Source: a virus. From it: DNA of 21,008 nt. Within the stretch, counting starts at the first letter, position 1. The number at the start of each line of letters is the position of its first letter. The stretch lies in the IMG/VR virus record IMGVR_UViG_3300025687_000413, positions 1-21,008 of that record. One strand, given 5' to 3'. Position numbers and translations under genes: made by a program. This document shows positions 41 to 11,805 of the stretch, piece by piece. The notes under the pieces were generated by a model. That model made no database searches and was not told the origin of the DNA. It saw only the letters and a list, made by a program, of their open reading frames with translations.

Positions 41-72
41 AAAATATGTCAACTAACAAACGGAGAAAAATT

Positions 73-282
73 ATGGACTACGACAAAAGATTTATAAAGC
101 AACATAACCTTAAAGCTTATTACAAGGTGGGCGACCAAAAATTCAAAACACGTAGCGAAGCCTACGCATTTTGTATGCGCCAAATTAAAACCACAGGCAC
201 AACTTTGGGAATCGAACAAGCGTGTGATGACATGCCAACTTTACCTAAATTGCCTACGCCCAATTATGACTATTCTAAATAA
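73..282 (+). CDS. Small hypothetical phage protein (69 aa)
   Basis: No family recognised. It is a soluble, basic, aromatic-rich protein beginning MDYDKRFI and ending in a proline-rich tail (PTLPKLPTPNYDYSK). The start at 73 is chosen because GGAG lies at 62-65, seven bases upstream. An in-frame ATG at 46 has no ribosome-binding site and would fall at the predicted transcript start. The 10-base gap to the next gene carries AAGGAG. If the promoter at 12-40 is real, this is the first gene of the array. Function unknown. Confidence 0.7.
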   Translation: MDYDKRFIKQHNLKAYYKVGDQKFKTRSEAYAFCMRQIKTTGTTLGIEQACDDMPTLPKLPTPNYDYSK

Positions 283-292
283 GGAGTTAATC

Positions 293-646
293 ATGAACCA
301 AGAGAACACATTTGTAGGACTAACCGACATGTTTTTAGAACGCTTGAAACTTTACGATTTACTCGATACAAAAGAGGGCGTTGATATTATCGCCTACGAG
401 GGAATCGTGAACAGGATTGAGGAACTTGACAATACCATCAGCACTATTCGAGAGGTAGAACGAGGCGTCGAGGAATACAAAGTAACAGTCGAGGAAACTA
501 TCTCATACACCATATATGTCAAGGCAACATCACGCACAGAGGCAGAGGAACAAGTGCAACATATAATAGATGACAATCAATATTGGGAGAGGGGAATCGC
601 AGAAACACAAGATGTTCATATTTATTCAATCGAGGAGGTCGCATAA
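293..646 (+). CDS. DpnD/PcfM-like domain protein with N-terminal extension (117 aa)
   Basis: The N-terminal half (residues 1-60) is helical and acidic. The C-terminal half has the pattern of small DpnD/PcfM-like proteins: a first strand (EYKVTVEE), a second strand (YTIYVKA), then a helix starting TEAEEQV and an acidic end (SIEEVA). At least three other proteins here share that layout (starts 1441, 3247 and 4247). ATG at 293 has AAGGAG about six bases upstream; an in-frame ATG at 224 lies inside the previous gene and lacks a site. The last codons (EEVA) contain GAGGAGG, which serves as Shine-Dalgarno for the next gene. Family call is by pattern; function unknown. Confidence 0.72.
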   Translation: MNQENTFVGLTDMFLERLKLYDLLDTKEGVDIIAYEGIVNRIEELDNTISTIREVERGVEEYKVTVEETISYTIYVKATSRTEAEEQVQHIIDDNQYWERGIAETQDVHIYSIEEVA

Positions 647-648
647 TG
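632..648 (+). promoter_or_regulatory. Junction motif: Shine-Dalgarno embedded in the EEVA stop region
   Basis: GAGGAGGTCGCATAATG encodes the final EEVA and stop of one gene, supplies the Shine-Dalgarno and contains the ATG of the next. Its 13-base core GGAGGTCGCATAA (634-646) recurs exactly at 2136-2148, and a variant occurs at 3233-3250. All three lie at gene junctions. Confidence 0.6.
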
Positions 649-912
649 AAACAGCAAACATATAGCATGAACGGAGTGAACTTTGTGTTGGACGGAGGCA
701 AACTACACCAATGGATTGACAACTTGGGGGACGAGATAGGCGATTATATTGCAGTCAATATCGATAACCCATCAGACCGAATGAAACTTTCAGCAATCGC
801 GGGTTCTGTCGAATGTTTTGGGGACGAAGACTTGCCAATGGACAAGGGGACTTATTACATATTCAAGGCGGTCGACATGATTACAATCAATGACAAAGGG
901 GAACGAGAATGA
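646..912 (+). CDS. Small hypothetical phage protein (88 aa)
   Basis: No family recognised. It begins MKQQTYSMNG and looks soluble, acidic and rich in beta strands (GVNFVLDGG near residues 10-18, DYIAVNI near 33-39, TYYIFKAVDMITI near 68-80). The start overlaps the previous stop by one base (TAATG) with the embedded GAGGAGG upstream. An in-frame start at 583 lies inside the previous gene. The end overlaps the next start by four bases (ATGA), so it is probably translated by coupling. Function unknown. Confidence 0.75.
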   Translation: MKQQTYSMNGVNFVLDGGKLHQWIDNLGDEIGDYIAVNIDNPSDRMKLSAIAGSVECFGDEDLPMDKGTYYIFKAVDMITINDKGERE

Positions 913-1184
913 GAACTGAAACACAAAACAAAAGGTATAACGGGTGGAAAAACTATGCGTCGTGGAACTGTGCGTTATGGATAGGCAACGACATGCACCT
1001 GTACTTCGTAGCACGAGACTGCATTAAACATGCAAACTATTGTGTTGACCGAGCCATTTCGAAATTCCTAGACTACACAAGAGGTGAAAAAACAGGGGAC
1101 GGAGTGCCTTACACTAAAGAAAACATAAGAGAATACTTTGTCAATGAGATGGACGAGATGATGGAGGAGGACTACGCAAAATGA
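909..1184 (+). CDS. Phage NGWxNYxxW-family protein (91 aa)
   Basis: Residues 11-20 read NGWKNYASWN, followed by ALWIGND, the hallmark of a small family widespread in phages and plasmids (NGWxNYxTW..LWI). No molecular function is established for it that I know of. The rest is helical with conserved-looking aromatics and an acidic end (EEDYAK). It is joined by ATGA overlaps on both sides. Its last 21 bases lie inside the first copy of a 41-base direct repeat, so it shares its last six residues with the next gene's product. Confidence 0.8.
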   Translation: MRTETQNKRYNGWKNYASWNCALWIGNDMHLYFVARDCIKHANYCVDRAISKFLDYTRGEKTGDGVPYTKENIREYFVNEMDEMMEEDYAK

Positions 1185-1204
1185 AACTTAAACAACCAAA
1201 GATG
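1164..1204 (+). repeat. 41-bp perfect direct repeat, copy 1, across a gene junction
   Basis: Bases 1164-1204 recur without mismatch at 1424-1464 (offset 260). Each copy holds the last codons of the upstream gene (EEDYAK and stop), the Shine-Dalgarno GAGGAGG, the ATGA overlap and the first eight codons of the downstream gene (MKLKQPKM). The flanking genes are otherwise unrelated. Confidence 0.97.
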
Positions 1205-1444
1205 TTTTTAGATTTGAAAAACAAAGACCATGCAAATGTGTTTAACAAGGTATGTTCAGGAGAAATAACCGAGTTACACCCATGCCCACATGGACATGAC
1301 TATGAGAGCCAACAAACTTGTTCTCATTATGAAGAACAAGACGAAAGTGACTTTGGTGAATGCTCTACATGGCTTGTTAGAAACACAAAATGTTACTGTG
1401 AACTACAACCTATAAATTTTTATGAGGAGGACTACGCAAAATGA
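1181..1444 (+). CDS. Cys/His-rich small protein between the 41-bp repeats (87 aa)
   Basis: No family recognised. It has six cysteines (C25, C35, C47, C61, C71, C73) and histidines at 37, 39 and 49 (CPHGHD, CSHY, CYC), which suggests metal binding, although no standard zinc-finger spacing is evident. Its first eight residues (MKLKQPKM) are identical to those of the next gene, and its last six (EEDYAK) to those of the previous gene, because a 41-base repeat brackets it. It can therefore be viewed as a cassette that homologous recombination could delete or duplicate. ATGA overlaps on both sides. Confidence 0.78.
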   Translation: MKLKQPKMFLDLKNKDHANVFNKVCSGEITELHPCPHGHDYESQQTCSHYEEQDESDFGECSTWLVRNTKCYCELQPINFYEEDYAK

Positions 1445-1464
1445 AACTTAAACAACCAAAGATG
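1424..1464 (+). repeat. 41-bp perfect direct repeat, copy 2
   Basis: Second copy of the 1164-1204 repeat, at the 3' end of the Cys/His-rich gene and the 5' end of the 59-aa DpnD/PcfM-like gene. It ends after the codons for MKLKQPKM. Identity stops abruptly on both sides, which fits a recombination joint. Confidence 0.97.
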
Positions 1465-1620
1465 AAAACATTCGTAGTGACAGTAGATTTTGAGAGCCAA
1501 CAATACGAGGTCGAAGCAGAGAATATCGAACAGGCAGAAAAGTATGTAGACCGACTGTATGAGGAGGGGCAAGTTTATACAGAGGGATATTTAATAGGTC
1601 ATATAGAGGAGGAGGTATAA
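1441..1620 (+). CDS. DpnD/PcfM-like small protein (59 aa)
   Basis: After the repeat-derived MKLKQPKM, the sequence runs strand (KTFVVTVDF), strand (QQYEVEAEN), helix (IEQAEKYVDRLYEEG), short strand (EGYLIGHI) and acidic end (EEEV). This is the typical length and order of DpnD/PcfM-like proteins, which occur in phages and plasmids with no clear biochemical role. An internal ATG (codon 8) directly precedes KTFVV, so the first seven residues may be a recombination addition. Translated by ATGA overlap with the embedded GAGGAGG upstream. Confidence 0.78.
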   Translation: MKLKQPKMKTFVVTVDFESQQYEVEAENIEQAEKYVDRLYEEGQVYTEGYLIGHIEEEV

Positions 1621-1622
1621 CT

Positions 1623-1853
1623 ATGGCACGACCATTAATAGAAATATTTTACCAATACCGACATTCATACGCTGAAACAGTCGGCTATGTAGACGAGGAA
1701 ATATATGACGAAATTTATCCGATACTTGAGAAACATGCCAAGAAAAATGGATTTGAACTACAAGAGAGAGTCGTGGAGGAGATTGAACTGCGCGACATTG
1801 AAACATTAGCAAACGAAAGACTTAAGGAGAGTGAAAATGAAACAAACAGTTAA
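1623..1853 (+). CDS. Small acidic hypothetical protein (76 aa)
   Basis: No family recognised. Begins MARPLIEIFYQY; the rest is helical and acidic (EEIYDEIYPILEKHAKKNGF, then VVEEIELRDIETLANERL). It starts two bases after the previous stop, with GAGGAGG just upstream inside the previous C-terminus. Its 3' end overlaps the next gene by 17 bases, including that gene's Shine-Dalgarno AAGGAGA. Function unknown. Confidence 0.75.
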   Translation: MARPLIEIFYQYRHSYAETVGYVDEEIYDEIYPILEKHAKKNGFELQERVVEEIELRDIETLANERLKESENETNS

Positions 1854-2148
1854 AGTGCAAGAAGTCATCATAATATATACGGACATAGTCAAGGGCGAGA
1901 TAGCACCACCGAGAAAGCAAGTGGTGAATGTAGCCATCATGCCTGACGATTATCACTTTACCGACTCGTTCTACGAGAGTGATTTCGATCAAAATATTTA
2001 CTACTACTTTGATGAATCAGAATGGAAAGAGATTAAAAACCAAGTCAATACAGGGGACGAACTTGTAGGCTTTGGGGACAACAACTTTATCTTGCAACTT
2101 GTAGGTAAACCTGAACAAGTCGAGATTGAATACATGGAGGTCGCATAA
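1837..2148 (+). CDS. Hypothetical beta-rich phage protein (103 aa)
   Basis: No family recognised. Residues 1-35 look like beta strands (KVQEVIIIYTDIV, KQVVNVAIMP), followed by an aromatic- and aspartate-rich middle (YYYFDESEWKEI) and a C-terminal strand region. Start at 1837 is preferred over GTG at 1831 because AAGGAGA (1824-1830) then sits six bases upstream. It ends in the YMEVA variant of the shared C-terminal motif, whose bases GGAGG provide the next gene's Shine-Dalgarno. Function unknown. Confidence 0.75.
   Translation: MKQTVKVQEVIIIYTDIVKGEIAPPRKQVVNVAIMPDDYHFTDSFYESDFDQNIYYYFDESEWKEIKNQVNTGDELVGFGDNNFILQLVGKPEQVEIEYMEVA
2136..2148 (+). repeat. 13-bp junction repeat GGAGGTCGCATAA
   Basis: Exact recurrence of 634-646. 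It encodes the end and stop of the upstream protein and supplies the Shine-Dalgarno for ATG 2150, here with a slightly longer gap (TAACATG instead of TAATG). Confidence 0.7.
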
Positions 2149-2149
2149 C

Positions 2150-2359
2150 ATGAATCAATGTGATAAATGTGGTGTTAAAGATAGGCATGAAGATAAAAAC
2201 AGCGAGTTTAATCCAAGTGATTTCTTTTGGCATGGTGATATAGAAGAACCCTATAACATGGGGGAGTATTCTTGTTTATGTAGAAAATGTTTTGATGAGG
2301 GCAATTACTATACTGACTGTGAGGTTAGTGGAAAACTTTATAAAGGAATGAAATTATGA
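2150..2359 (+). CDS. Small zinc-binding-type protein (69 aa)
   Basis: Cysteines lie at residues 4, 7, 42, 44, 47 and 57: an N-terminal CDKC, then CLCRKC around a WHGDIEEPYNMGEYS segment. CxxC...CxxC strongly suggests a structural zinc site (knuckle type). No named family recognised. Start 2150 has GGAGG about nine bases upstream; in-frame codons further upstream lie inside the previous gene. Ends in an ATGA overlap with the next gene. Binding of nucleic acid or protein is possible but not shown. Confidence 0.75.
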   Translation: MNQCDKCGVKDRHEDKNSEFNPSDFFWHGDIEEPYNMGEYSCLCRKCFDEGNYYTDCEVSGKLYKGMKL

Positions 2360-2652
2360 GAAACATGAAGAACTTAGAACTATCAACCATAGCAACATTT
2401 GATGACTACGAACAAGAATGGTTTGTTATAGAAGCCATACCTGAAACGGCTATGGCAACCGAGAATAAACTGCTTGACTTTGTGAAAGGACAACTTATCA
2501 GTCCAATCGAATCATTAAGGAAACTCTCACTTTGTTGGGACTATAAAAATGAGAAGACTTACAACGCACAGAAAAGAAACTTCCCTGTGATACAACAAGT
2601 GGTCGACCAAAACGGAAAATACTTTTTTAACAAAGGAGAACAACATGCCTAA
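2356..2652 (+). CDS. Hypothetical phage protein (98 aa)
   Basis: No family recognised. It begins MRNMKNLELSTIATFDDY, has a probable helix near residues 30-60 (TENKLLDFVKGQLISPIESL) and ends in a polar tail (FFNKGEQHA). It starts on an ATGA overlap. It overlaps the Api92-like gene downstream by eight bases (ATGCCTAA), whose Shine-Dalgarno AAGGAG lies in its last codons. Function unknown. Confidence 0.7.
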   Translation: MRNMKNLELSTIATFDDYEQEWFVIEAIPETAMATENKLLDFVKGQLISPIESLRKLSLCWDYKNEKTYNAQKRNFPVIQQVVDQNGKYFFNKGEQHA

Positions 2653-3250
2653 TTGGTGCAACAATTCTATAAGTATTAAAACAAACAGCAAACTGTTATA
2701 CAGAAAGATTAAGACACACCTAGAAACAGAAGCCGAAAAAGACGACAAAGGTCACTATGTTGGCGTGGGGCTTTTCGGACTGCTGTATCCTGAGCCTGAC
2801 TACGAGAAGATAGACGTCCTTAATTGGAAAGGTGAGAAAGAGGACAAAGGTAGAGCGTGGTGGTATTGGCGCGTAGAAAATTGGGGAACGAAGTGGGACG
2901 TTTGGAGTGACGACATTCTTGGTGACTTGACTTGCACAGCAGACGACAAAAACCGAGAGTATGAGATTGAACTCGACTTTGATTCAGCATGGTCACCACC
3001 AATCCAATGGCTACGCTATTGCGAACAGAAATACGAGAAACAAAACCTCGCATTCCACATGACATACTTCGAGGGAGGTATGGGATTCGGAGGGGTATAC
3101 GATACCTTTTCAGGTGACGCATACTACGAGTTTGATGACATCAAGGACGCTGTGTTGAACGGCACAGAAGACGAGGCGTTAGCTGAACTTATTGATGTTC
3201 AATGTTTAACGAGAGATGATTTTTTATTTGATGAGGAGGAAGTCGCATGA
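2645..3250 (+). CDS. Api92-like protein (201 aa)
   Basis: The start MPNWCNN, the WRVENWGTKWD block (residues 75-85), the DSAWSPPIQWL block (113-123) and FEGGMGFGG (142-150) are the signature of Api92-like phage and plasmid proteins, which carry a ferredoxin-like domain (DUF1281 relatives). Length is close to the family norm and the copy looks intact. Molecular role is unknown; these genes usually sit in early or accessory regions. Start: AAGGAG five bases upstream of ATG 2645. It ends in DEEEVA, the shared C-terminal junction motif, and overlaps the next start by ATGA. Residues SGDAYYE are encoded by a 22-base sequence repeated at 5127. Confidence 0.88.
   Translation: MPNWCNNSISIKTNSKLLYRKIKTHLETEAEKDDKGHYVGVGLFGLLYPEPDYEKIDVLNWKGEKEDKGRAWWYWRVENWGTKWDVWSDDILGDLTCTADDKNREYEIELDFDSAWSPPIQWLRYCEQKYEKQNLAFHMTYFEGGMGFGGVYDTFSGDAYYEFDDIKDAVLNGTEDEALAELIDVQCLTRDDFLFDEEEVA
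3109..3130 (+). repeat. 22-bp direct repeat, copy 1 (codes SGDAYYE)
   Basis: TTCAGGTGACGCATACTACG followed by AG, identical to 5127-5148. Both copies lie inside genes in the same reading frame and both give SGDAYYE, although the two proteins are otherwise unrelated by eye. Confidence 0.9.
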
Positions 3251-3411
3251 GTAAATTAAAAACATGGAATGTTACCTACGAAAAAAGACAAACAACAACC
3301 TTTCGAGTGACAGGCAAGAATCGTGATGAAGCATTCCAAAATGCTTTGGTAGAAGTAGATGATTACGAACCTGAAACAGATGATTCATCATATTTTATAG
3401 AGGAGAATTAG
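3247..3411 (+). CDS. DpnD/PcfM-like small protein (54 aa)
   Basis: Layout: strand (KTWNVTYEK), strand (TTFRVTGKN), helix (RDEAFQNALVEV), acidic end (SSYFIEEN). This matches the other DpnD/PcfM-like proteins of the array. It starts on an ATGA overlap after the DEEEVA junction with GAGGAGG upstream. The next gene begins one base after its stop, with AGGAG in its last codons. Function unknown. Confidence 0.75.
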   Translation: MSKLKTWNVTYEKRQTTTFRVTGKNRDEAFQNALVEVDDYEPETDDSSYFIEEN

Positions 3412-3412
3412 T

Positions 3413-3667
3413 ATGAGTGAGGCAGAACTAACGAACTATTGGGATAACAAAGCAAGGGATTTTCTCATAGGCAAACGCATTAAGTATGCAAGGTATCAAA
3501 CGCTTGATGAGGCACAAGACATGGGGTGGCACGACAGAGGACTTGTCGTGTGGCTCGAGGACGGCTCTAACTTTATTGTCCAACGAGATGACGAGGGCAA
3601 CGGGGCAGGGGCGTTGAATATAGCTGACGCTACGGGCAAGGAGAACATCTTGCCCACGCTCAGATAA
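3413..3667 (+). CDS. Conserved phage protein, LVVWLEDGS type (84 aa)
   Basis: The order of motifs is familiar from an uncharacterised conserved phage family: an N-terminal helix, IGKRIKYARYQTLDEAQDMG, WHDRGLVVWLEDGSNFIVQ, DDEGNGAGAL and a terminal LPTL. I know no function for it. Start ATG 3413 has AGGAG about seven bases upstream, within the end of the previous gene. A 21-base gap follows, the first small break in the overlapping chain. Confidence 0.78.
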   Translation: MSEAELTNYWDNKARDFLIGKRIKYARYQTLDEAQDMGWHDRGLVVWLEDGSNFIVQRDDEGNGAGALNIADATGKENILPTLR

Positions 3668-3688
3668 CAAACATCAGAGGATATTGAC

Positions 3689-3724
3689 ATGGCTATTTAT
3701 ACAATCGAGGAGAAAAGCAAATGA
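3689..3724 (+). CDS. Possible micro-ORF, 11 aa (MAIYTIEEKSK)
   Basis: A very short frame with a plausible Shine-Dalgarno (CAGAGG, 3675-3680, eight bases upstream). Its stop overlaps the next start by ATGA, and its last codons contain GAGGAG, the Shine-Dalgarno of the next gene. It may be a leader that couples translation rather than a functional peptide, or it may be chance. Confidence 0.3.
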   Translation: MAIYTIEEKSK

Positions 3725-3849
3725 TAGATGAATTCAGAGAAAGGTGGGACGAAGACCAAGAGGAAGAAGCACGAGAAAGACGCGAACGCAAACTTGGGTG
3801 GGACGAAGAACGACTCAGGCTGTGGGAACTAGGGGATTGTGATGACTAA
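3721..3849 (+). CDS. Highly charged microprotein (42 aa)
   Basis: About two thirds of the residues are D, E, R or K. It contains two related segments (ERWDEDQEEEARERRERK and GWDEERLRL) partly encoded by a repeated 13-base sequence GGTGGGACGAAGA at 3743 and 3797, which suggests internal duplication. A single long charged helix is likely. The Shine-Dalgarno GAGGAG sits about seven bases before ATG 3721. It ends GDCDD. Function unknown; short acidic phage proteins can act as protein-binding inhibitors, but nothing here shows that. Confidence 0.6.
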   Translation: MIDEFRERWDEDQEEEARERRERKLGWDEERLRLWELGDCDD

Positions 3850-3880
3850 ATTTATTTTACAAAAGGAGATTCAATCATGA
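3842..3880 (+). CDS. Possible micro-ORF, 12 aa (MTKFILQKEIQS)
   Basis: It begins eight bases before the previous stop (ATGACTAA) and ends in an ATGA overlap with the gene at 3877. The sequence AAGGAG inside it is the Shine-Dalgarno of that gene. Its beginning resembles the start MTTKQFIIL of the gene at 6885, so it could be a degenerate remnant. No Shine-Dalgarno of its own is convincing. Confidence 0.2.
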   Translation: MTKFILQKEIQS

Positions 3881-4083
3881 AAAATATAGAAGAACTGGTC
3901 TCAAAGTCTATTGACCAACCTTCAAAAAAAGAACCAAAGAAGTTTTTGGTGTGTGTTGAAAGTGCTTACATCACCAACGAAGACTTTCTAACACAAGTCA
4001 CCGAAGCTTTAGACGAGTACGGCATAGTCGCTGAGGTCTATGAACTTACAGAAAACGAAATTCAAATAGGAGGTGAAGAATGA
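3877..4083 (+). CDS. Small hypothetical protein (68 aa)
   Basis: No family recognised with confidence. A 20-residue polar N-terminus is followed by strand (KKFLVCVESAY), helix (NEDFLTQVTEALDEYG), strand (IVAEVYEL) and acidic tail (IGGEE), so a compact alpha/beta fold is likely. It may be distantly related to the DpnD/PcfM-like proteins nearby, but the order of strands and helix is different. Shine-Dalgarno AAGGAG (3861-3866). Ends in an ATGA overlap. Confidence 0.72.
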   Translation: MKNIEELVSKSIDQPSKKEPKKFLVCVESAYITNEDFLTQVTEALDEYGIVAEVYELTENEIQIGGEE

Positions 4084-4250
4084 GTTTAGATTATGACATT
4101 GACGAAATCAAACTGCCCGTAACATTAAGGGTAAATGATGACGCCCTTGTTCATTTTGTACTAGACAGTGAAGTGTTGTCAGACGAAACGCTTCGTATGA
4201 TTTTTTTAGATATTGATAAAGAACTTGAGAGAAAGGGGTATGCAAGATGA
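4080..4250 (+). CDS. Small acidic hypothetical protein (56 aa)
   Basis: No family recognised. It begins MSLDYDIDEIKLPVTLRV, has a second strand (ALVHFVLDSE) and a C-terminal helix (IFLDIDKELERKGYAR). It is coupled by ATGA overlaps at both ends, with AGGTG upstream of the start. It has no long non-coding flank and fits the surrounding operon. Confidence 0.7.
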   Translation: MSLDYDIDEIKLPVTLRVNDDALVHFVLDSEVLSDETLRMIFLDIDKELERKGYAR

Positions 4251-4405
4251 GTAAAATGAAAAAGTTTATTGTATTTATTAAACAGCATTACGAGCCTAAG
4301 ATAGTTGAAGCCGTAGACCAAGATGAAGCAGAGTGGGTGGTACAAAACAACATGTCTTGGGGTGAGCCAATTGACGTTGAAATAACAGCAGAGGAGGAGG
4401 GATAA
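4247..4405 (+). CDS. DpnD/PcfM-like small protein (52 aa)
   Basis: Layout: strand (KKFIVFIKQ), strand (PKIVEAVDQ), helix (DEAEWVVQNNM), strand (PIDVEITA), acidic end (EEEG). This is the fourth member of the dispersed small-protein family here. The start overlaps the previous stop by ATGA, with GAAAGGGG about ten bases upstream. Its last codons (GAGGAGGAGGGATAATG) carry the Shine-Dalgarno for the next gene and a TAATG overlap. Function unknown. Confidence 0.75.
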   Translation: MSKMKKFIVFIKQHYEPKIVEAVDQDEAEWVVQNNMSWGEPIDVEITAEEEG

Positions 4406-4731
4406 TGAGTACAGCAATTAAACGACCAAAAACATTTGGTAAAACGCACCCGTACTTGTTGGTGCGACAAGACTTAGAATTTGAACAAGAACTTGATGAC
4501 GATTACGGTACGACATGGTATGTTTCAGCCGACATATACTACTCGCCCGAACTCGATCGGCATAAAGCAAACGTGTTCCACATAGGTACTTACAAAGATA
4601 CAGTTGAAGTATCAAGCATACCTTTATATGTACTACGGGAACTAGAGATGGAGGCCTTAGTTGTATTCTACGAAGAAAGCGAGGACATAAATATGGTTAA
4701 TAAATATATGGAAGCGGAGGGTATCAAATGA
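4405..4731 (+). CDS. Hypothetical phage protein (108 aa)
   Basis: No family recognised. Beta-rich middle (TWYVSADIYYSPEL, ANVFHIGTYKDTVEV) and a C-terminal acidic helix (RELEMEALVVFYEE). Strong Shine-Dalgarno GAGGAGGAGG just upstream inside the previous gene. Ends with an ATGA overlap; GGAGG lies in its last codons. Function unknown. Confidence 0.75.
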   Translation: MSTAIKRPKTFGKTHPYLLVRQDLEFEQELDDDYGTTWYVSADIYYSPELDRHKANVFHIGTYKDTVEVSSIPLYVLRELEMEALVVFYEESEDINMVNKYMEAEGIK

Positions 4732-4997
4732 GCGAGAAACGACAAGACTATTCTAATGATGACGGACATGAAAACGAGTGGTATGCAGTCACAAGGTGGC
4801 ATGTAGATGATATTAAAAGGTTCAGACCTGAATGGTCGGACGACTTTTGTGCCACAGTTTTATCAACAATGGAAAACACATTTCAAGAACTTCTTATCGA
4901 ACGAGGGAATGACATACTTGATTGCATGATAGAGGGTTCTGAAAAAACTTGGTTAGAAGAATGGGGGTATCTAAATGAAACTGAAGAAACTAACTAA
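4728..4997 (+). CDS. Conserved small phage protein, WHVDDIK..RPEWSDD type (89 aa)
   Basis: The segment WHVDDIKRFRPEWSDDFCATVL, then a helix ending LIERGNDILDCMIE, follows a pattern common in short uncharacterised phage proteins (TxEDVxxLxPxWS..A..FL.......L...M.E.GW..I). It is all alpha and soluble. The start overlaps the previous gene by ATGA, with GGAGG about eight bases upstream. It overlaps the next gene by 23 bases. Function unknown. Confidence 0.72.
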   Translation: MSEKRQDYSNDDGHENEWYAVTRWHVDDIKRFRPEWSDDFCATVLSTMENTFQELLIERGNDILDCMIEGSEKTWLEEWGYLNETEETN

Positions 4998-5310
4998 ATC
5001 AATGGTCGCCGAGTGGTGCAAGAACGAGGCCGAGAAAATCCGATTCGAATGGTATTACAAAGATGGGTGGGCAGACTATATGATTGATTGGGACGAATCG
5101 CAAATGTATGAGGAGACTGAGTTTAATTCAGGTGACGCATACTACGAGGGCGAGATCGTTGTGACTTGGACGTGGGGGAACGATCAGAAGTATGCAGAGC
5201 ATCACACCTACCACGATTGTATTCAACCTATGGAGATTTACAATGACATCTATAACAAAGAAAGATCAACGAGAGGCGAAGATTCTCGCTTCTCAAACGC
5301 CACGACTTAA
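4975..5310 (+). CDS. Hypothetical aromatic/acidic protein (111 aa)
   Basis: No family recognised. Helical start (MKLKKLTKSMVAEWCKNEAE), then a Trp/Tyr/Asp-rich part (EWYYKDGWADYMIDWDES) and a strand (EIVVTWTWGND). Its first residues MKLKK resemble the repeat-derived MKLKQ of the genes at 1181 and 1441. Bases 5127-5148 (SGDAYYE) match a segment of the Api92-like gene exactly. The last 68 bases overlap the next gene out of frame, and the C-terminus there (NKERSTRGEDSRFSNATT) may be a late addition. GGGGG lies seven bases before the ATG. Confidence 0.72.
   Translation: MKLKKLTKSMVAEWCKNEAEKIRFEWYYKDGWADYMIDWDESQMYEETEFNSGDAYYEGEIVVTWTWGNDQKYAEHHTYHDCIQPMEIYNDIYNKERSTRGEDSRFSNATT
5127..5148 (+). 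repeat. 22-bp direct repeat, copy 2 (codes SGDAYYE)
   Basis: Identical to 3109-3130 and in the same frame. It is flanked by unrelated coding sequence (EEFN-type before, GEIVV after). Confidence 0.9.
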
Positions 5311-5443
5311 GGTAGTAGGAAGACAGTTTGTCGTGGAGGCAACACACCCAAACTTTCACTTGGCACATTTGAAACGTGCGTTGGCAGATCAGATGTGTGA
5401 AGTGCGAGAGTTGGGAGAAGATGAAGTTATTTATAAAATTTAA
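5243..5443 (+). CDS. Small hypothetical protein (66 aa)
   Basis: Start ATG 5243 is chosen because GGAG (5232-5235) is seven bases upstream; an in-frame start at 5192 has none. Begins MTSITKKDQREAKILA; then a strand (VVGRQFVVEAT), a helix (LAHLKRALADQM) and a strand (DEVIYKI). It overlaps the previous gene out of frame by 68 bases, long for this array. No family recognised. Confidence 0.68.
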   Translation: MTSITKKDQREAKILASQTPRLKVVGRQFVVEATHPNFHLAHLKRALADQMCEVRELGEDEVIYKI

Positions 5444-5454
5444 AGGAGAATATC

Positions 5455-5628
5455 ATGTATGTAGATATGGAAAGTGTAAAAGTAAGAGATGCAAAACGTA
5501 GATGGTTATGGAAAATGCAATTTGAGCGCGAGGCTCGGGGCAAGATAATATTATCTTTCGCTTTTGGCTTTGGTATCGGCTTTGCATGTTGTACAGTTTT
5601 ATACACCATGTTAGAGAGGGTATCGTAA
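5455..5628 (+). CDS. Single-pass membrane protein (57 aa)
   Basis: A basic, soluble N-terminus (RDAKRRWLWKMQFEREARGK) precedes one hydrophobic segment at about residues 31-52 (IILSFAFGFGIGFACCTVLY), then a short tail. The positive-inside rule predicts a cytoplasmic N-terminus. Shine-Dalgarno AAAGGAG about eight bases before the ATG; ends in a TAATG overlap with a second membrane protein. Function unknown. A holin or superinfection-exclusion role is possible only by analogy with other tiny phage membrane proteins. Confidence 0.72.
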   Translation: MYVDMESVKVRDAKRRWLWKMQFEREARGKIILSFAFGFGIGFACCTVLYTMLERVS

Positions 5629-5894
5629 TGTTTAAAAAGAAAGGTTTAATGGAAATAAGAGAAGTAGGAAAGATAGGGTATGCTGATCTGTGTTTAGGTA
5701 TAGTGATAGGTACAGCAATCGGGTATTGTGGTGTACATGCTTACGAGGCCTATGATGATTTAGTAAACCCTGTGGCAAGAGAAATCGTTTGTAAAAAAGG
5801 TATTGCCTATGAAGCTGTTGACTATGGCAGTACAGTATTTTTAAAAACTAAAGCTGAATGTATTGAAACTGCATTCGGAGAGGAGATGAAATAA
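5628..5894 (+). CDS. Single-pass membrane protein with exposed Cys-containing domain (88 aa)
   Basis: A hydrophobic segment near residues 20-40 (DLCLGIVIGTAIGYCGVHAY) is followed by a soluble part with cysteines (REIVCKKGIAYEAVDYG, KTKAECIETAFGEE). With a basic N-terminus the tail is predicted outside the cytoplasm; the two tail cysteines could form a disulphide there. Start 5628 overlaps the previous stop (TAATG); an earlier in-frame start at 5586 lies within the previous gene. No family recognised. It forms a pair with the preceding membrane protein. Confidence 0.75.
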   Translation: MFKKKGLMEIREVGKIGYADLCLGIVIGTAIGYCGVHAYEAYDDLVNPVAREIVCKKGIAYEAVDYGSTVFLKTKAECIETAFGEEMK

Positions 5895-6142
5895 TGTTAA
5901 AAAGGAAAATAATTGATTATACGGAAAATGATATTTATGATTACTTTGGCTGTTCTACTGATATATGGCAAGCAGATCGGCACGACTTACTTGCAGTCAT
6001 TGGAGGCATGTCTGGGATACTCGAACTGCTCTGGCATAAAGAGATAACTCCTGAAGTATCATTTAACGACTTTAAAGAATGGTTAGAAGATAACCAACCC
6101 ATAGATGTGGAGATTATAGATGACACCCGAAAAGAAGGTTAA
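5894..6142 (+). CDS. Hypothetical acidic protein (82 aa)
   Basis: No family recognised. Helical, with segments ENDIYDYFG, HDLLAVIGGMSGILELLWH and FNDFKEWLEDNQPIDVEI. Starts on a TAATG overlap with GGAG upstream. The 3' end overlaps the VRR-NUC gene by 23 bases and carries its Shine-Dalgarno (GGAG, 6110-6113). Function unknown. Confidence 0.72.
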   Translation: MLKRKIIDYTENDIYDYFGCSTDIWQADRHDLLAVIGGMSGILELLWHKEITPEVSFNDFKEWLEDNQPIDVEIIDDTRKEG

Positions 6143-6428
6143 AGTAAAAGTTTGTGAGATACTTAAAAAACTAGGGGCGTATTATTTCTACGCCTCTACG
6201 GGTGGATACGGCAGTAGTGGTGTTCCCGATATTGTTGCCTGCTATAAGGGAAAGTTTTTTGGTATTGAGTGTAAGGCCAATGGTGGAAAGCCAACGGCCT
6301 TACAACAAAAACATTTGCGTGACATTTCGATTAACGGTGGAACGGCTCTTCTTATTGACGAGACAAATGTGGATATGCTAGAGTATTATGTTACAGGCAA
6401 ACAAACATTTAATTATGAAGAAAGATAA
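6120..6428 (+). CDS. VRR-NUC domain nuclease (102 aa)
   Basis: A minimal stand-alone VRR-NUC protein of the PD-(D/E)XK superfamily. After an N-terminal helix (residues 4-20) come GVPDIVACYKG (P36-D37), the IECKANGG block (E50, K52) and TALQQKHL, which supplies the glutamine typical of the family. All expected active-site residues are present. Phage members cut structured DNA such as junctions or replication forks, so a role in replication or recombination intermediates is likely. ATG 6120 has GGAG six bases upstream. It overlaps the DUF3310 gene by 14 bases. Confidence 0.9.
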   Translation: MTPEKKVKVKVCEILKKLGAYYFYASTGGYGSSGVPDIVACYKGKFFGIECKANGGKPTALQQKHLRDISINGGTALLIDETNVDMLEYYVTGKQTFNYEER

Positions 6429-6645
6429 CGTAAATCGGCCGGTACATTACATTCAAGGTAAAGTCGAGTGTATTGATGCCATTGAGTCGGCAACCACGGG
6501 GCTTGTTGGAATCGTCGCTGTCTGTGTCGCTAACGTAATTAAATATGTGTGGCGATTTGCACTGAAGAATGGTGTCGAAGATTTAGACAAAGCAGATTAT
6601 TATTTACAAAAACTAAGAAAGAAAGTGAGAGATCAAAATGAGTAA
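6415..6645 (+). CDS. DUF3310 (SaV-like) family protein (76 aa)
   Basis: The sequence shows the DUF3310 pattern in order: RPVHY (8-12), GKVECIDAIES, CVANVIKYVWRF (37-48) and KNGVEDLDKADYYLQKL. This family is common in phage early regions and is often labelled nucleotide kinase by transfer from longer proteins; no P-loop is present, so that label is not supported. The start at 6415 gives the usual family beginning; the in-frame alternative at 6388 lies in the VRR-NUC gene. No clear Shine-Dalgarno, so coupled translation is likely. Confidence 0.9.
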   Translation: MKKDNVNRPVHYIQGKVECIDAIESATTGLVGIVAVCVANVIKYVWRFALKNGVEDLDKADYYLQKLRKKVRDQNE

Positions 6646-6895
6646 AGACCTTTTCGCAAGAACAAAAAGTTTATTACAAGATCACATAAGACTACTTAAT
6701 GAACATAAGATGGGCGATTCACACGCGGAAGACGCCCAAATAATAGTTGACGAAATTAGTCTACTATTACAAACAGATGAACTCAAACAAATTGAACAAA
6801 GCATTGACGACGCAGAACGTTTAAAGCTCTCAGAAGAGATAGCTAACGAGATTATTCATGGGAAGTATTGCGTTGGTGGTGCATGTGACGACTAA
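6638..6895 (+). CDS. Hypothetical helical protein (85 aa)
   Basis: No family recognised. Almost entirely helical with regular leucine spacing (TKSLLQDHIRLLNEHK, IVDEISLLLQTDELKQIEQ), so it is probably a small coiled coil. Ends in GGACDD, similar to the GDCDD end of the microprotein at 3721. Starts with an eight-base overlap (ATGAGTAA). Function unknown. Confidence 0.7.
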   Translation: MSKDLFARTKSLLQDHIRLLNEHKMGDSHAEDAQIIVDEISLLLQTDELKQIEQSIDDAERLKLSEEIANEIIHGKYCVGGACDD

Positions 6896-7076
6896 ACAGT
6901 TTATAATACTTGATGAAGACCTTGAGCCTTTACGAGTATTTAATACAAAAGTTGACGCAGAGTGGTTTGTAAAAGATAAACCCGACTGTTCAATAAAAAC
7001 AACCCTAACAGAAATACCATCAAACATAATGAGCCATGATGAATTCACGGCCAAGTTTGGCGAACCCCCATTTTAA
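6885..7076 (+). CDS. Small hypothetical protein, GTG start (63 aa)
   Basis: Begins MTTKQFIILDED from GTG 6885, with GGTGG about five bases upstream; an in-frame ATG at 6858 would add nine residues (MGSIALVVH) with no ribosome-binding site. Layout is strand (KQFIILDED), strand (LRVFNTKV) with DAEWFVKDKP helix, then TLTEIPSN. Ends KFGEPPF. No family recognised. Overlaps the previous gene by 11 bases. Confidence 0.65.
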   Translation: MTTKQFIILDEDLEPLRVFNTKVDAEWFVKDKPDCSIKTTLTEIPSNIMSHDEFTAKFGEPPF

Positions 7077-10426: not shown

Positions 10427-11047
10427 ATGAACTACGTGCGATTTAATTTAAAGATTGACACAAATGACATTACTGAACGCGTTTACAATTTAACAGAGAA
10501 GTGGATTAGTCGGTCGCAAGAGTATCCGTTCTTTACCCTTGGGCGCAGCGCTTACCTTGATGGACAGACTCCTGAATATATAAAAGATATTCGCTATGAT
10601 AATGCACTAATCCTTGGAGAATTTGGGGACTTACATGAACGAGCATTACAAACATTAGAAGAATATTTTCATGAACCTATCAATCTTTCTTGGGATTTAC
10701 GATGCCCGGGCTTTCATATTTTTCCGAGCGACCCTGTGTTTATAGTAAAAGATATTGCTGGAAATTGGCACAAAGATTTACCTCATGAAACATTATTTCT
10801 TGGTTCAGAAGACCCATATACATTTACTATACCCATTGAACAACCAGCATCTGGAGCGGGTATAGATTACTTGGATAAATATTGTCAAATGCAACATATT
10901 CCTTATGAAAAAGGGGGCATGATTTTGCATGATGGCACGGCGTTTCACAGAATAGCAGGGCTTAAAGAATATGTACCTAATGAATATAGAATTACTATGC
11001 AAGGACATTTAATAAGACGCAAAGGAAGATTGGAGGCTTTTTGGTAA
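10427..11047 (+). CDS. 2OG-Fe(II) oxygenase-like protein (206 aa)
   Basis: The C-terminal half fits the double-stranded beta-helix of 2-oxoglutarate/Fe(II) oxygenases: the HxD motif in NWHKDL (H115, D117), strands YTFTIPIEQP and GMILHDG, distal histidine in TAFHRI (H174) and an Arg 14 residues later (R188 in EYRITMQG) for the cosubstrate. Residues 1-90 are an N-terminal helical part. Length suits a single-domain phage enzyme. The substrate is unknown; phage relatives can hydroxylate protein side chains or nucleic acid bases. Start 10427 follows GGAG; TTG 10418 is less likely. Ends in a TAATG overlap with a zinc-ribbon gene. Confidence 0.68.
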   Translation: MNYVRFNLKIDTNDITERVYNLTEKWISRSQEYPFFTLGRSAYLDGQTPEYIKDIRYDNALILGEFGDLHERALQTLEEYFHEPINLSWDLRCPGFHIFPSDPVFIVKDIAGNWHKDLPHETLFLGSEDPYTFTIPIEQPASGAGIDYLDKYCQMQHIPYEKGGMILHDGTAFHRIAGLKEYVPNEYRITMQGHLIRRKGRLEAFW

Positions 11048-11214
11048 TGTCTCACGAAGCAGGAAAAGGTAGTAAACAAAGACCAACAAATAACAAGGCA
11101 TTTAACGACGGATATGATAGAATATTTGGAATACGGTGTAAGCATTGTAGGTATAAACAGCAAAAGACAGAGAGTCAGCCTGTTCTTTGTGAGTCTTGTG
11201 GGAAAGAACTATGA
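11047..11214 (+). CDS. Small zinc-ribbon phage protein (55 aa)
   Basis: The N-terminal part, with GKGSKQRPTNNKAF and YDRIFG, is a pattern seen in many short phage proteins. A zinc ribbon follows: C31-x2-C34 and C48-x2-C51 (CKHCRY, CESCGKEL). Starts on the previous stop (TAATG) and ends on an ATGA overlap. Function unknown; binding of nucleic acid is plausible given the basic N-terminus. Confidence 0.78.
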   Translation: MSHEAGKGSKQRPTNNKAFNDGYDRIFGIRCKHCRYKQQKTESQPVLCESCGKEL

Positions 11215-11420
11215 TGGAATTTGTGTTAATAATCAGTTTAGTAGGTGATTTGGGCCCCGATGAAAAATTTGGAGGCACGTTTGAAAACTGCACTCAAGCA
11301 AACATACACTACATTAAAAATTACAGGGGTAAAAAAGAATACAACGGCTACAGATGTATTCGCAAAGATTTAATTACAGAAAAAGAAGAACTAAAATTTT
11401 TAGGAAAGGGGCATGATTGA
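11211..11420 (+). CDS. Small FxxCxxAN-type protein, first of a pair (69 aa)
   Basis: Hydrophobic N-terminal strand (MMEFVLIISLVGD), then GGTFENCTQANIHY and a C-terminal half (GYRCIRKD). The next gene product has the same plan (FVLVVES, GHFQDCYTANEF, SICLHE), so the two are probably diverged duplicates. Start 11211 makes an ATGA overlap; ATG 11214 and an upstream start at 11196 are less likely. The hydrophobic start is probably a strand, although a short signal or anchor cannot be excluded. Confidence 0.72.
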   Translation: MMEFVLIISLVGDLGPDEKFGGTFENCTQANIHYIKNYRGKKEYNGYRCIRKDLITEKEELKFLGKGHD

Positions 11421-11646
11421 ATATCTTTTTGTTTTGGTTGTTGAGTCAACTTATGAGGATAACCATAGAGTTTATATTGGGCATTTCCAAGACTGCTACA
11501 CAGCTAATGAATTCGCAGAAGATTACCTCCCTGATTTTAGGTCTATTTGCCTACACGAAAACTTTATGAATATACCAGAAGAATTAAAAGAAAAAATTAT
11601 TTTTATTAAGGAAGGCGACAAATGGAAAAAGCTAAGAAAAATTTAA
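11413..11646 (+). CDS. Small FxxCxxAN-type protein, second of a pair (77 aa)
   Basis: Strand (MIEYLFVLVVES), then RVYIGHFQDCYTANEFAEDY, SICLHENF and a charged C-terminus (KEKIIFIKEGDKWKKL). Similar in plan to the preceding protein (F25-x2-C28-x2-A-N). The family is familiar from marine phage genomes but has no known role. AAAGGGG lies upstream. It overlaps the previous gene by eight bases, and its end overlaps a 14-aa micro-ORF. Confidence 0.72.
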   Translation: MIEYLFVLVVESTYEDNHRVYIGHFQDCYTANEFAEDYLPDFRSICLHENFMNIPEELKEKIIFIKEGDKWKKLRKI

Positions 11647-11666
11647 TTGGATGCAACAATGGCTAA
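11622..11666 (+). CDS. 14-aa micro-ORF resembling the next gene's N-terminus
   Basis: Reads MEKAKKNLIGCNNG. It has a good Shine-Dalgarno (AAGGAAGG, six bases upstream) and overlaps the gene at 11659 by eight bases. Its first ten residues resemble MAKVKQNLIG of that gene (six identical), and the first 30 bases match at about 23 positions. Likely a partial duplication that left a leader frame; translation is unproven. Confidence 0.42.
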   Translation: MEKAKKNLIGCNNG

Positions 11667-11805
11667 AGTTAAACAAAATTTAATAGGGGAAAAACATCAA
11701 GCTTTACACAAACGTACTTCACAAGGAGGCCGACGCCCTAAGACGAGCACGATGAATAAAAATATCAAATCAAATTATAAAAAATACAGAGGGCAAGGCC
11801 GATGA
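11659..11805 (+). CDS. Small basic phage protein, KRTSxGG...YRGQGR type (48 aa)
   Basis: Begins MAKVKQNLIGEKHQ, then LHKRTSQGGRRPKT, and ends NYKKYRGQGR. This combination recurs in small basic proteins of many aquatic and T4-like phages, always as an unnamed protein. Basic and disordered-looking, so RNA or DNA binding is possible. ATG 11659 has no strong Shine-Dalgarno, and coupling to the micro-ORF at 11622 could explain translation. Ends in an ATGA overlap with the Cas4-like gene. Confidence 0.75.
   Translation: MAKVKQNLIGEKHQALHKRTSQGGRRPKTSTMNKNIKSNYKKYRGQGR

Follow-up and report, generated by a model that had tools for sequence, protein, structure and literature searches.

A small phage gene between 41-bp direct repeats, read as a single-gene cassette inserted at a translation-start junction

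How does a single phage gene come to be bracketed, at its start and at its stop, by the same 41 bp, and could it be gained or lost as a unit? The question is raised by a linear virus contig of 21,008 bases (IMG/VR record IMGVR_UViG_3300025687_000413; this whole stretch is called the window), in which three overlapping genes, here named A, B and C, follow one another on the plus strand. That perfect 41-bp repeats bracket the Cys/His-rich gene, B, had been predicted from the sequence of the window (the original prediction) and was confirmed: GAGGAGGACTACGCAAAATGAAACTTAAACAACCAAAGATG is present twice without mismatch, at 1164–1204 and 1424–1464, with a spacing of 260 bp. We suggest, with a probability of about three in four, that B is a mobile single-gene cassette that was inserted between A and C, duplicating the recipient's segment from Shine-Dalgarno sequence (SD) to start ATG.

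The repeat and its three genes

The open reading frames (ORFs) are as the original prediction described them. Gene A (909–1184, plus strand; 91 aa, DUF7249 family, PF23907, Pfam E 8e-15) ends in EEDYAK, whose codons include the SD for B; gene B (1181–1444, plus strand; 87 aa) runs from MKLKQPKM to EEDYAK; and gene C (1441–1620, plus strand; 59 aa) starts again with MKLKQPKM. At each junction stop and start overlap in ATGA, preceded by GAGGAGG, so that B abuts both neighbours and no non-coding DNA separates it from them. Copy 1 of the repeat (1164–1204, plus strand) comprises the SD GAGGAGG, the stop/start overlap ATGA and seven leader codons (MKLKQPK), and ends on the ATG that is the native start of B, a start placed using the copy of B in another contig, L108; copy 2 (1424–1464, plus strand) is the same box between B and C, ending on an inner ATG of C.

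The longest exact repeat in the window is this one of 41 bp, falling to 22 bp when one copy is removed, whereas in 100 windows simulated with an order-2 Markov model it was at most 19 bp (mean 14.5). Among 1,592 adjacent gene-start pairs from the window and its relatives (about 95 contigs), it is also the longest, the runner-up having 18 bp. Since the simulated maximum and the next gene-start pair are so much shorter, the repeat is not due to chance.

A complete translation-initiation region in itself, the box might have been kept for translation or regulation, giving B and C matched initiation unconnected with any movement of a cassette; repeated start-associated sequences (SAS) are known in cluster K mycobacteriophages (PMC3203893). 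Against this, the window contig has only the two copies, no third being found in it at up to three mismatches, and the other gene starts of the surrounding array show nothing similar to the box beyond SD and ATG. Moreover, the identity spans seven codons with zero synonymous changes, B is found without the box in five other contigs, and the box, which is coding or SD throughout, folds into no hairpin, ruling out a hairpin role. We therefore regard a regulatory origin as very improbable.

The protein encoded by B has conserved Cys and His residues, which hint at metal binding. It gave no family or structure match in Pfam (above cut-off), PHROG, PADLOC or solved structures, no recognisable enzyme domain was found in its 87 aa, and its AlphaFold model was unusably poor, with a mean pLDDT (predicted local distance difference test) of 41. 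Searches found no relatives of B or C among phage records, no relatives of B among one-per-species bacterial and archaeal genomes and, by the exact-peptide method, no close relatives of A and C in the contigs of the viral collection; distant relatives of A were found in many phages.

Gene B at other junctions

Five further phage contigs, namely G001 (L003), G002 (L004), G003 (L005), L108 and, truncated at the contig end, L101, carry the body of B, which there occupies four other gene junctions. Its shared core (1202–1423, plus strand; codons MFLDLKN to INFY) is 91–98% identical in DNA to these copies, with 96–98% in G001, G002 and G003 and 91% in L108. The backbones are far less alike, the G003 backbone having only 68–72% DNA identity to the window and the DNA polymerase of G001, a contig 99.8% identical to G002 across 15.6 kb, only 44% protein identity to the window's. 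The neighbours of B also differ, being A and C in the window, MNKYRV and NYVCIN in G001, CDKC and MNAQKF in G003, F7 and F4 in L108, and, in L101, a 79-aa gene ahead of B. L108 keeps B at another junction than G003, although their backbones are 90–95% identical. B is thus a single gene recently transferred among otherwise distant phages. As a separate observation, the DNA polymerase match has one in-frame TAG in both G001 (4045–2207, minus strand) and G002 (5743–3905, minus strand).

The copies of B also fix the position of its joints. In their alignment, identity starts at GATGTTTTTAG (GATG/TTTTTAG) and stops at TTTTTAT[G/A]A-GG, and these limits coincide exactly with the ends of the two repeat copies that face B. 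The B of L108 starts at ATGTTTTTAG behind its own SD; the native start therefore corresponds to window position 1202, and MKLKQPK is extra. At the other end, the C-termini of the other copies read KEEVA, EGK or KGE, in contrast to EEDYAK in the window, where the tail is thus also an addition. The joints of B are accordingly its own start ATG (1202) and the SD that follows it (about 1424). Because that ATG is exactly the end of the left repeat copy and that SD exactly the beginning of the right one, the 41 bp represent the recipient segment between the joints, and both termini of B (MKLKQPK... and ...EEDYAK) therefore came from the insertion site. The core of C (MKTFVVTV...) aligns with F4, a recurring small-protein family of such arrays, and C weakly matches DpnD/PcfM and RNA polymerase inhibitor profiles. 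The alignment runs from codon 6–8 of C, where the members of the family start (hhalign probability 90%), and MKLKQPK in C again looks like an added leader, as in B, with the caveat that N-terminal extensions vary within this family.

Alternatively, the donor B may already have been boxed on one or both sides, or a gene X in an A-box-X arrangement may have been replaced, by homologous recombination between long boxes, in which case the 41 bp would be a linker that travelled with a cassette rather than a target that was duplicated. Successive cassettes in G003 do have one box in common with each other, so some cassettes may travel with theirs, and the F19 relatives in L111 and L112 have AGGGAAATGAAA at their own 3' end. 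However, none of the five other copies of B has any part of the 41-mer beyond SD/ATG similarity, an exact scan of the viral collection contigs did not find the 41-mer, and a pattern search for MKLKQPKM elsewhere returned three matches, all in unrelated sequences. A boxed donor is thus improbable. The repeat does not serve as a general site of recombination, and the best reading is that the recipient's SD-to-start segment was duplicated at the insertion of B.

The same joints bear on the possibility of an assembly error, in which two strains were misjoined at a common 41-mer. The window is a metagenome contig, the length of the repeat is near that of assembly k-mers, and close strains differ in the array. 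Yet the joints on the B side fall precisely where B has its native start and its SD, independent contigs show comparable arrangements built on other repeats, no other viral contig has the 41-mer for a misjoining, and one read normally spans 41 bp. An artefact of this kind seems to us hardly credible.

Presence and absence of single genes in relatives

B lies in a hypervariable array of overlapping small genes (46–6142, plus strand; from ORFs and contig comparison) that makes up the first 6.1 kb of the window, and the relatives show single genes coming and going at the junctions of such arrays. Following the 79-aa gene, nine contigs carry different next genes from the same nucleotide onward. 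In L108, GGGGAGGAAATGAAATGA links this gene straight to MNAQKF, and in G003 the CDKC gene and B stand between the two, with GGGGAAATGAAATGA after each. L101 and G003 are 99.0% identical over 1,012 bp, after which the 182-bp CDKC gene is missing from L101, precisely between 13-bp repeats. (For the gap between L100 and L101, one global alignment set the gap off the repeat; local alignments and the raw sequences show a clean joint.) Genes other than B, at a B-containing site among others, are thus present in one relative and missing from another that keeps one copy of the repeat. Over the roughly 95 contigs we collected 165 distinct presence/absence events, 107 of which have their breakpoint no more than 3 bp from a called gene start (5.1 expected), and junction repeats are longer at single-gene variable loci than at the others (at least 13 bp in 5.8% versus 0.5%; Mann-Whitney p 8e-4).

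Several points weigh against a cassette inserted by duplication. Whole-gene indels fall at gene borders in part because selection eliminates the rest, so the excess at start sites is by itself no evidence of mechanism, and the 165 events are not fully independent, the relatives being kin to one another. Most variable genes in the relatives show only about 5–6 bp of junction identity, long repeats being exceptional; as a rule, then, there is SD/ATG microhomology, and a duplication of 41 bp departs from it. Finally, A joined directly to C was not found in any relative in the viral collection, in which one near relative, L115, begins only at window position 2192 and none was found that covers 1–2190. 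The relatives lacking 1181–1440 that the original prediction had called for thus did not turn up at A/C itself, and it is at other junctions that gene content varies.

The idea of a recombination cassette, also part of that prediction, holds for the gene better than for the repeat. It is supported by B at four other junctions and by other genes that relatives have or lack, with precise borders, between shorter junction repeats, and it needs modifying in so far as the 41-mer, absent from the viral collection, is no general site of recombination. Absence of the repeat from other junctions had been named in advance as evidence against the idea, and for the 41-mer this is literally what was found; the relatives use other repeats, placed as here with respect to gene starts, and the cassette idea therefore stands.

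Further exchanges were seen in and around the array. L006 and L007 do not share the array with the window, despite 99.7% identical DNA from window position 7038 on; compared with these two contigs (L006 at 8683, L007 at 3900), the window has about 73% identity at 6123–6879, is unrelated further upstream and shows a sharp recombination boundary near 7038. About 740 bp of the window (10944–11675) are 95% identical to G002 (2143–1406), which is otherwise distantly related, marking a further recent exchange outside the array. Within the array, a 42-aa gene (3721–3849) is found at a different junction in L115 (453–578), between the homologues of 2356–2652 and 2645–3250, another relocation of a single gene. 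A perfect 22-bp repeat, TTCAGGTGACGCATACTACGAG, lies within two different genes, at 3109–3130 and 5127–5148, and encodes SGDAYYE in both.

A model for insertion, and its precedents

The sequence of events, including a template switch or crossover and possible reversal at this site, is our inference and runs as follows. A and C were presumably adjacent before B arrived, and insertion would have used two short similarities, one per joint. The left joint would lie at the start codon (GATG), formed by the inner ATG of C in the recipient and the ATG of B in the donor, and the right joint at the SD, which reads A(G/A)GAGG downstream of B and GAGGAGG downstream of A. The joints would be crossed, with exit at the start codon and re-entry at the SD upstream of that codon; since in the recipient the left joint is the more downstream of the two, the 41-bp segment would be duplicated. 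Such a duplication would be expected if replication switched templates, leaving at the start codon and returning at the SD, or if two genomes underwent an unequal crossover. In a co-infected cell, a strand being copied, or an annealed end, could run past the A/C box, carry on at the matching ATG of the donor's gene and come back at the matching SD, B gaining its MKLKQPK leader and EEDYAK tail from the duplicated box. The second box gives SD, stop and start on both sides, and translation of all three genes would therefore be preserved.

T7-type single-stranded-DNA-binding proteins promote annealing. The phage encodes one of these, together with a PD-(D/E)XK nuclease and an Hjc-like resolvase (a match only just above cut-off), and we count these genes for the insertion model; 3' of the array lie the binding protein and the nuclease, along with the DNA polymerase, a SNF2-type helicase and a DUF927 protein. 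A direct repeat of 41 bp, 100% identical at both ends of B, is long enough for homologous recombination, and a single crossover within it would cleanly delete B. In silico removal of one repeat unit leaves A and C letter-for-letter intact with a working SD-ATGA junction, bearing out the functional junction that had been predicted for loss of the 87-aa gene.

The closest precedent found, and a close one, is gene 68 of mycobacteriophage Island3 as compared with Brujita, for which deletion or gain by general recombination was proposed (PMC3029335). The window shares with it a direct repeat at both ends of the gene and, in silico, a deletion that leaves the neighbours intact; it differs in that the Island3/Brujita repeat is formed by the 3' ends of two genes, whereas the window's comprises SD, stop/start and the first eight codons, and in that B is also known in other contexts, which fixes its joints. 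In lambdoid phages, short conserved boundary sequences at module borders serve recombination (PMC3029335, PMC2327257), and these are conserved across genomes, unlike the 41-mer, which is private to one junction. The SAS of cluster K, a 13-bp motif just upstream of the start codons of many genes per genome (PMC3203893), likewise repeats at start codons; in place of many copies, the window contig has one 41-bp pair that reaches into the coding region, and the pair is not of that class.

In T4-type phages, small genes are described as shuffling via repeated regulatory DNA at their borders, the PeSLs (Arbiol 2010, as cited in PMC4503421). On that account a PeSL is a promoter with a stem-loop, unlike the window's box, a translation-initiation region without a fold, and the locus is no such cassette. 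An imperfect palindrome, CACAAATTCACAATTTTGTGAAAACGTG, does resemble a PeSL-type or operator repeat; it has dispersed intergenic copies in L092 (G001) at 4412, 9570, 10581, 12222 and 13598, preceding several genes and in one case lying behind a sigma-70-like promoter, and is absent from the window. Nor is B a moron with its own promoter and terminator, given its ATGA overlaps with both neighbours, or a transposon or homing element, B standing alone with neither an enzyme domain nor a hairpin in its box. From the known cases the A/B/C locus differs in its unusually well-resolved joints.

Whether phage mosaicism arises gene by gene through homologous or through illegitimate recombination is a long-running debate, to which the locus and its relatives contribute joints at nucleotide level, the same junctions in several states, both empty and occupied, and a single gene in five settings. 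Here small phage genes are shuffled like cards at translation-start junctions. The results suggest that SD-start boxes offer both short similarity for joining and assured translation of the new operon, and that a duplicated box renders a new gene provisional. For annotation they carry a warning, since the junction, rather than the protein family, may be the source of the terminal residues of such proteins. A bolder proposal, which we consider doubtful, is that these phages routinely gain genes by template switch, with exit at a start codon and re-entry at the SD upstream. If so, each gain would duplicate an initiation box, rewrite the ends of the incoming protein and leave the gene excisable, amounting to a cassette system guided by translation signals that would work without a dedicated recombinase.
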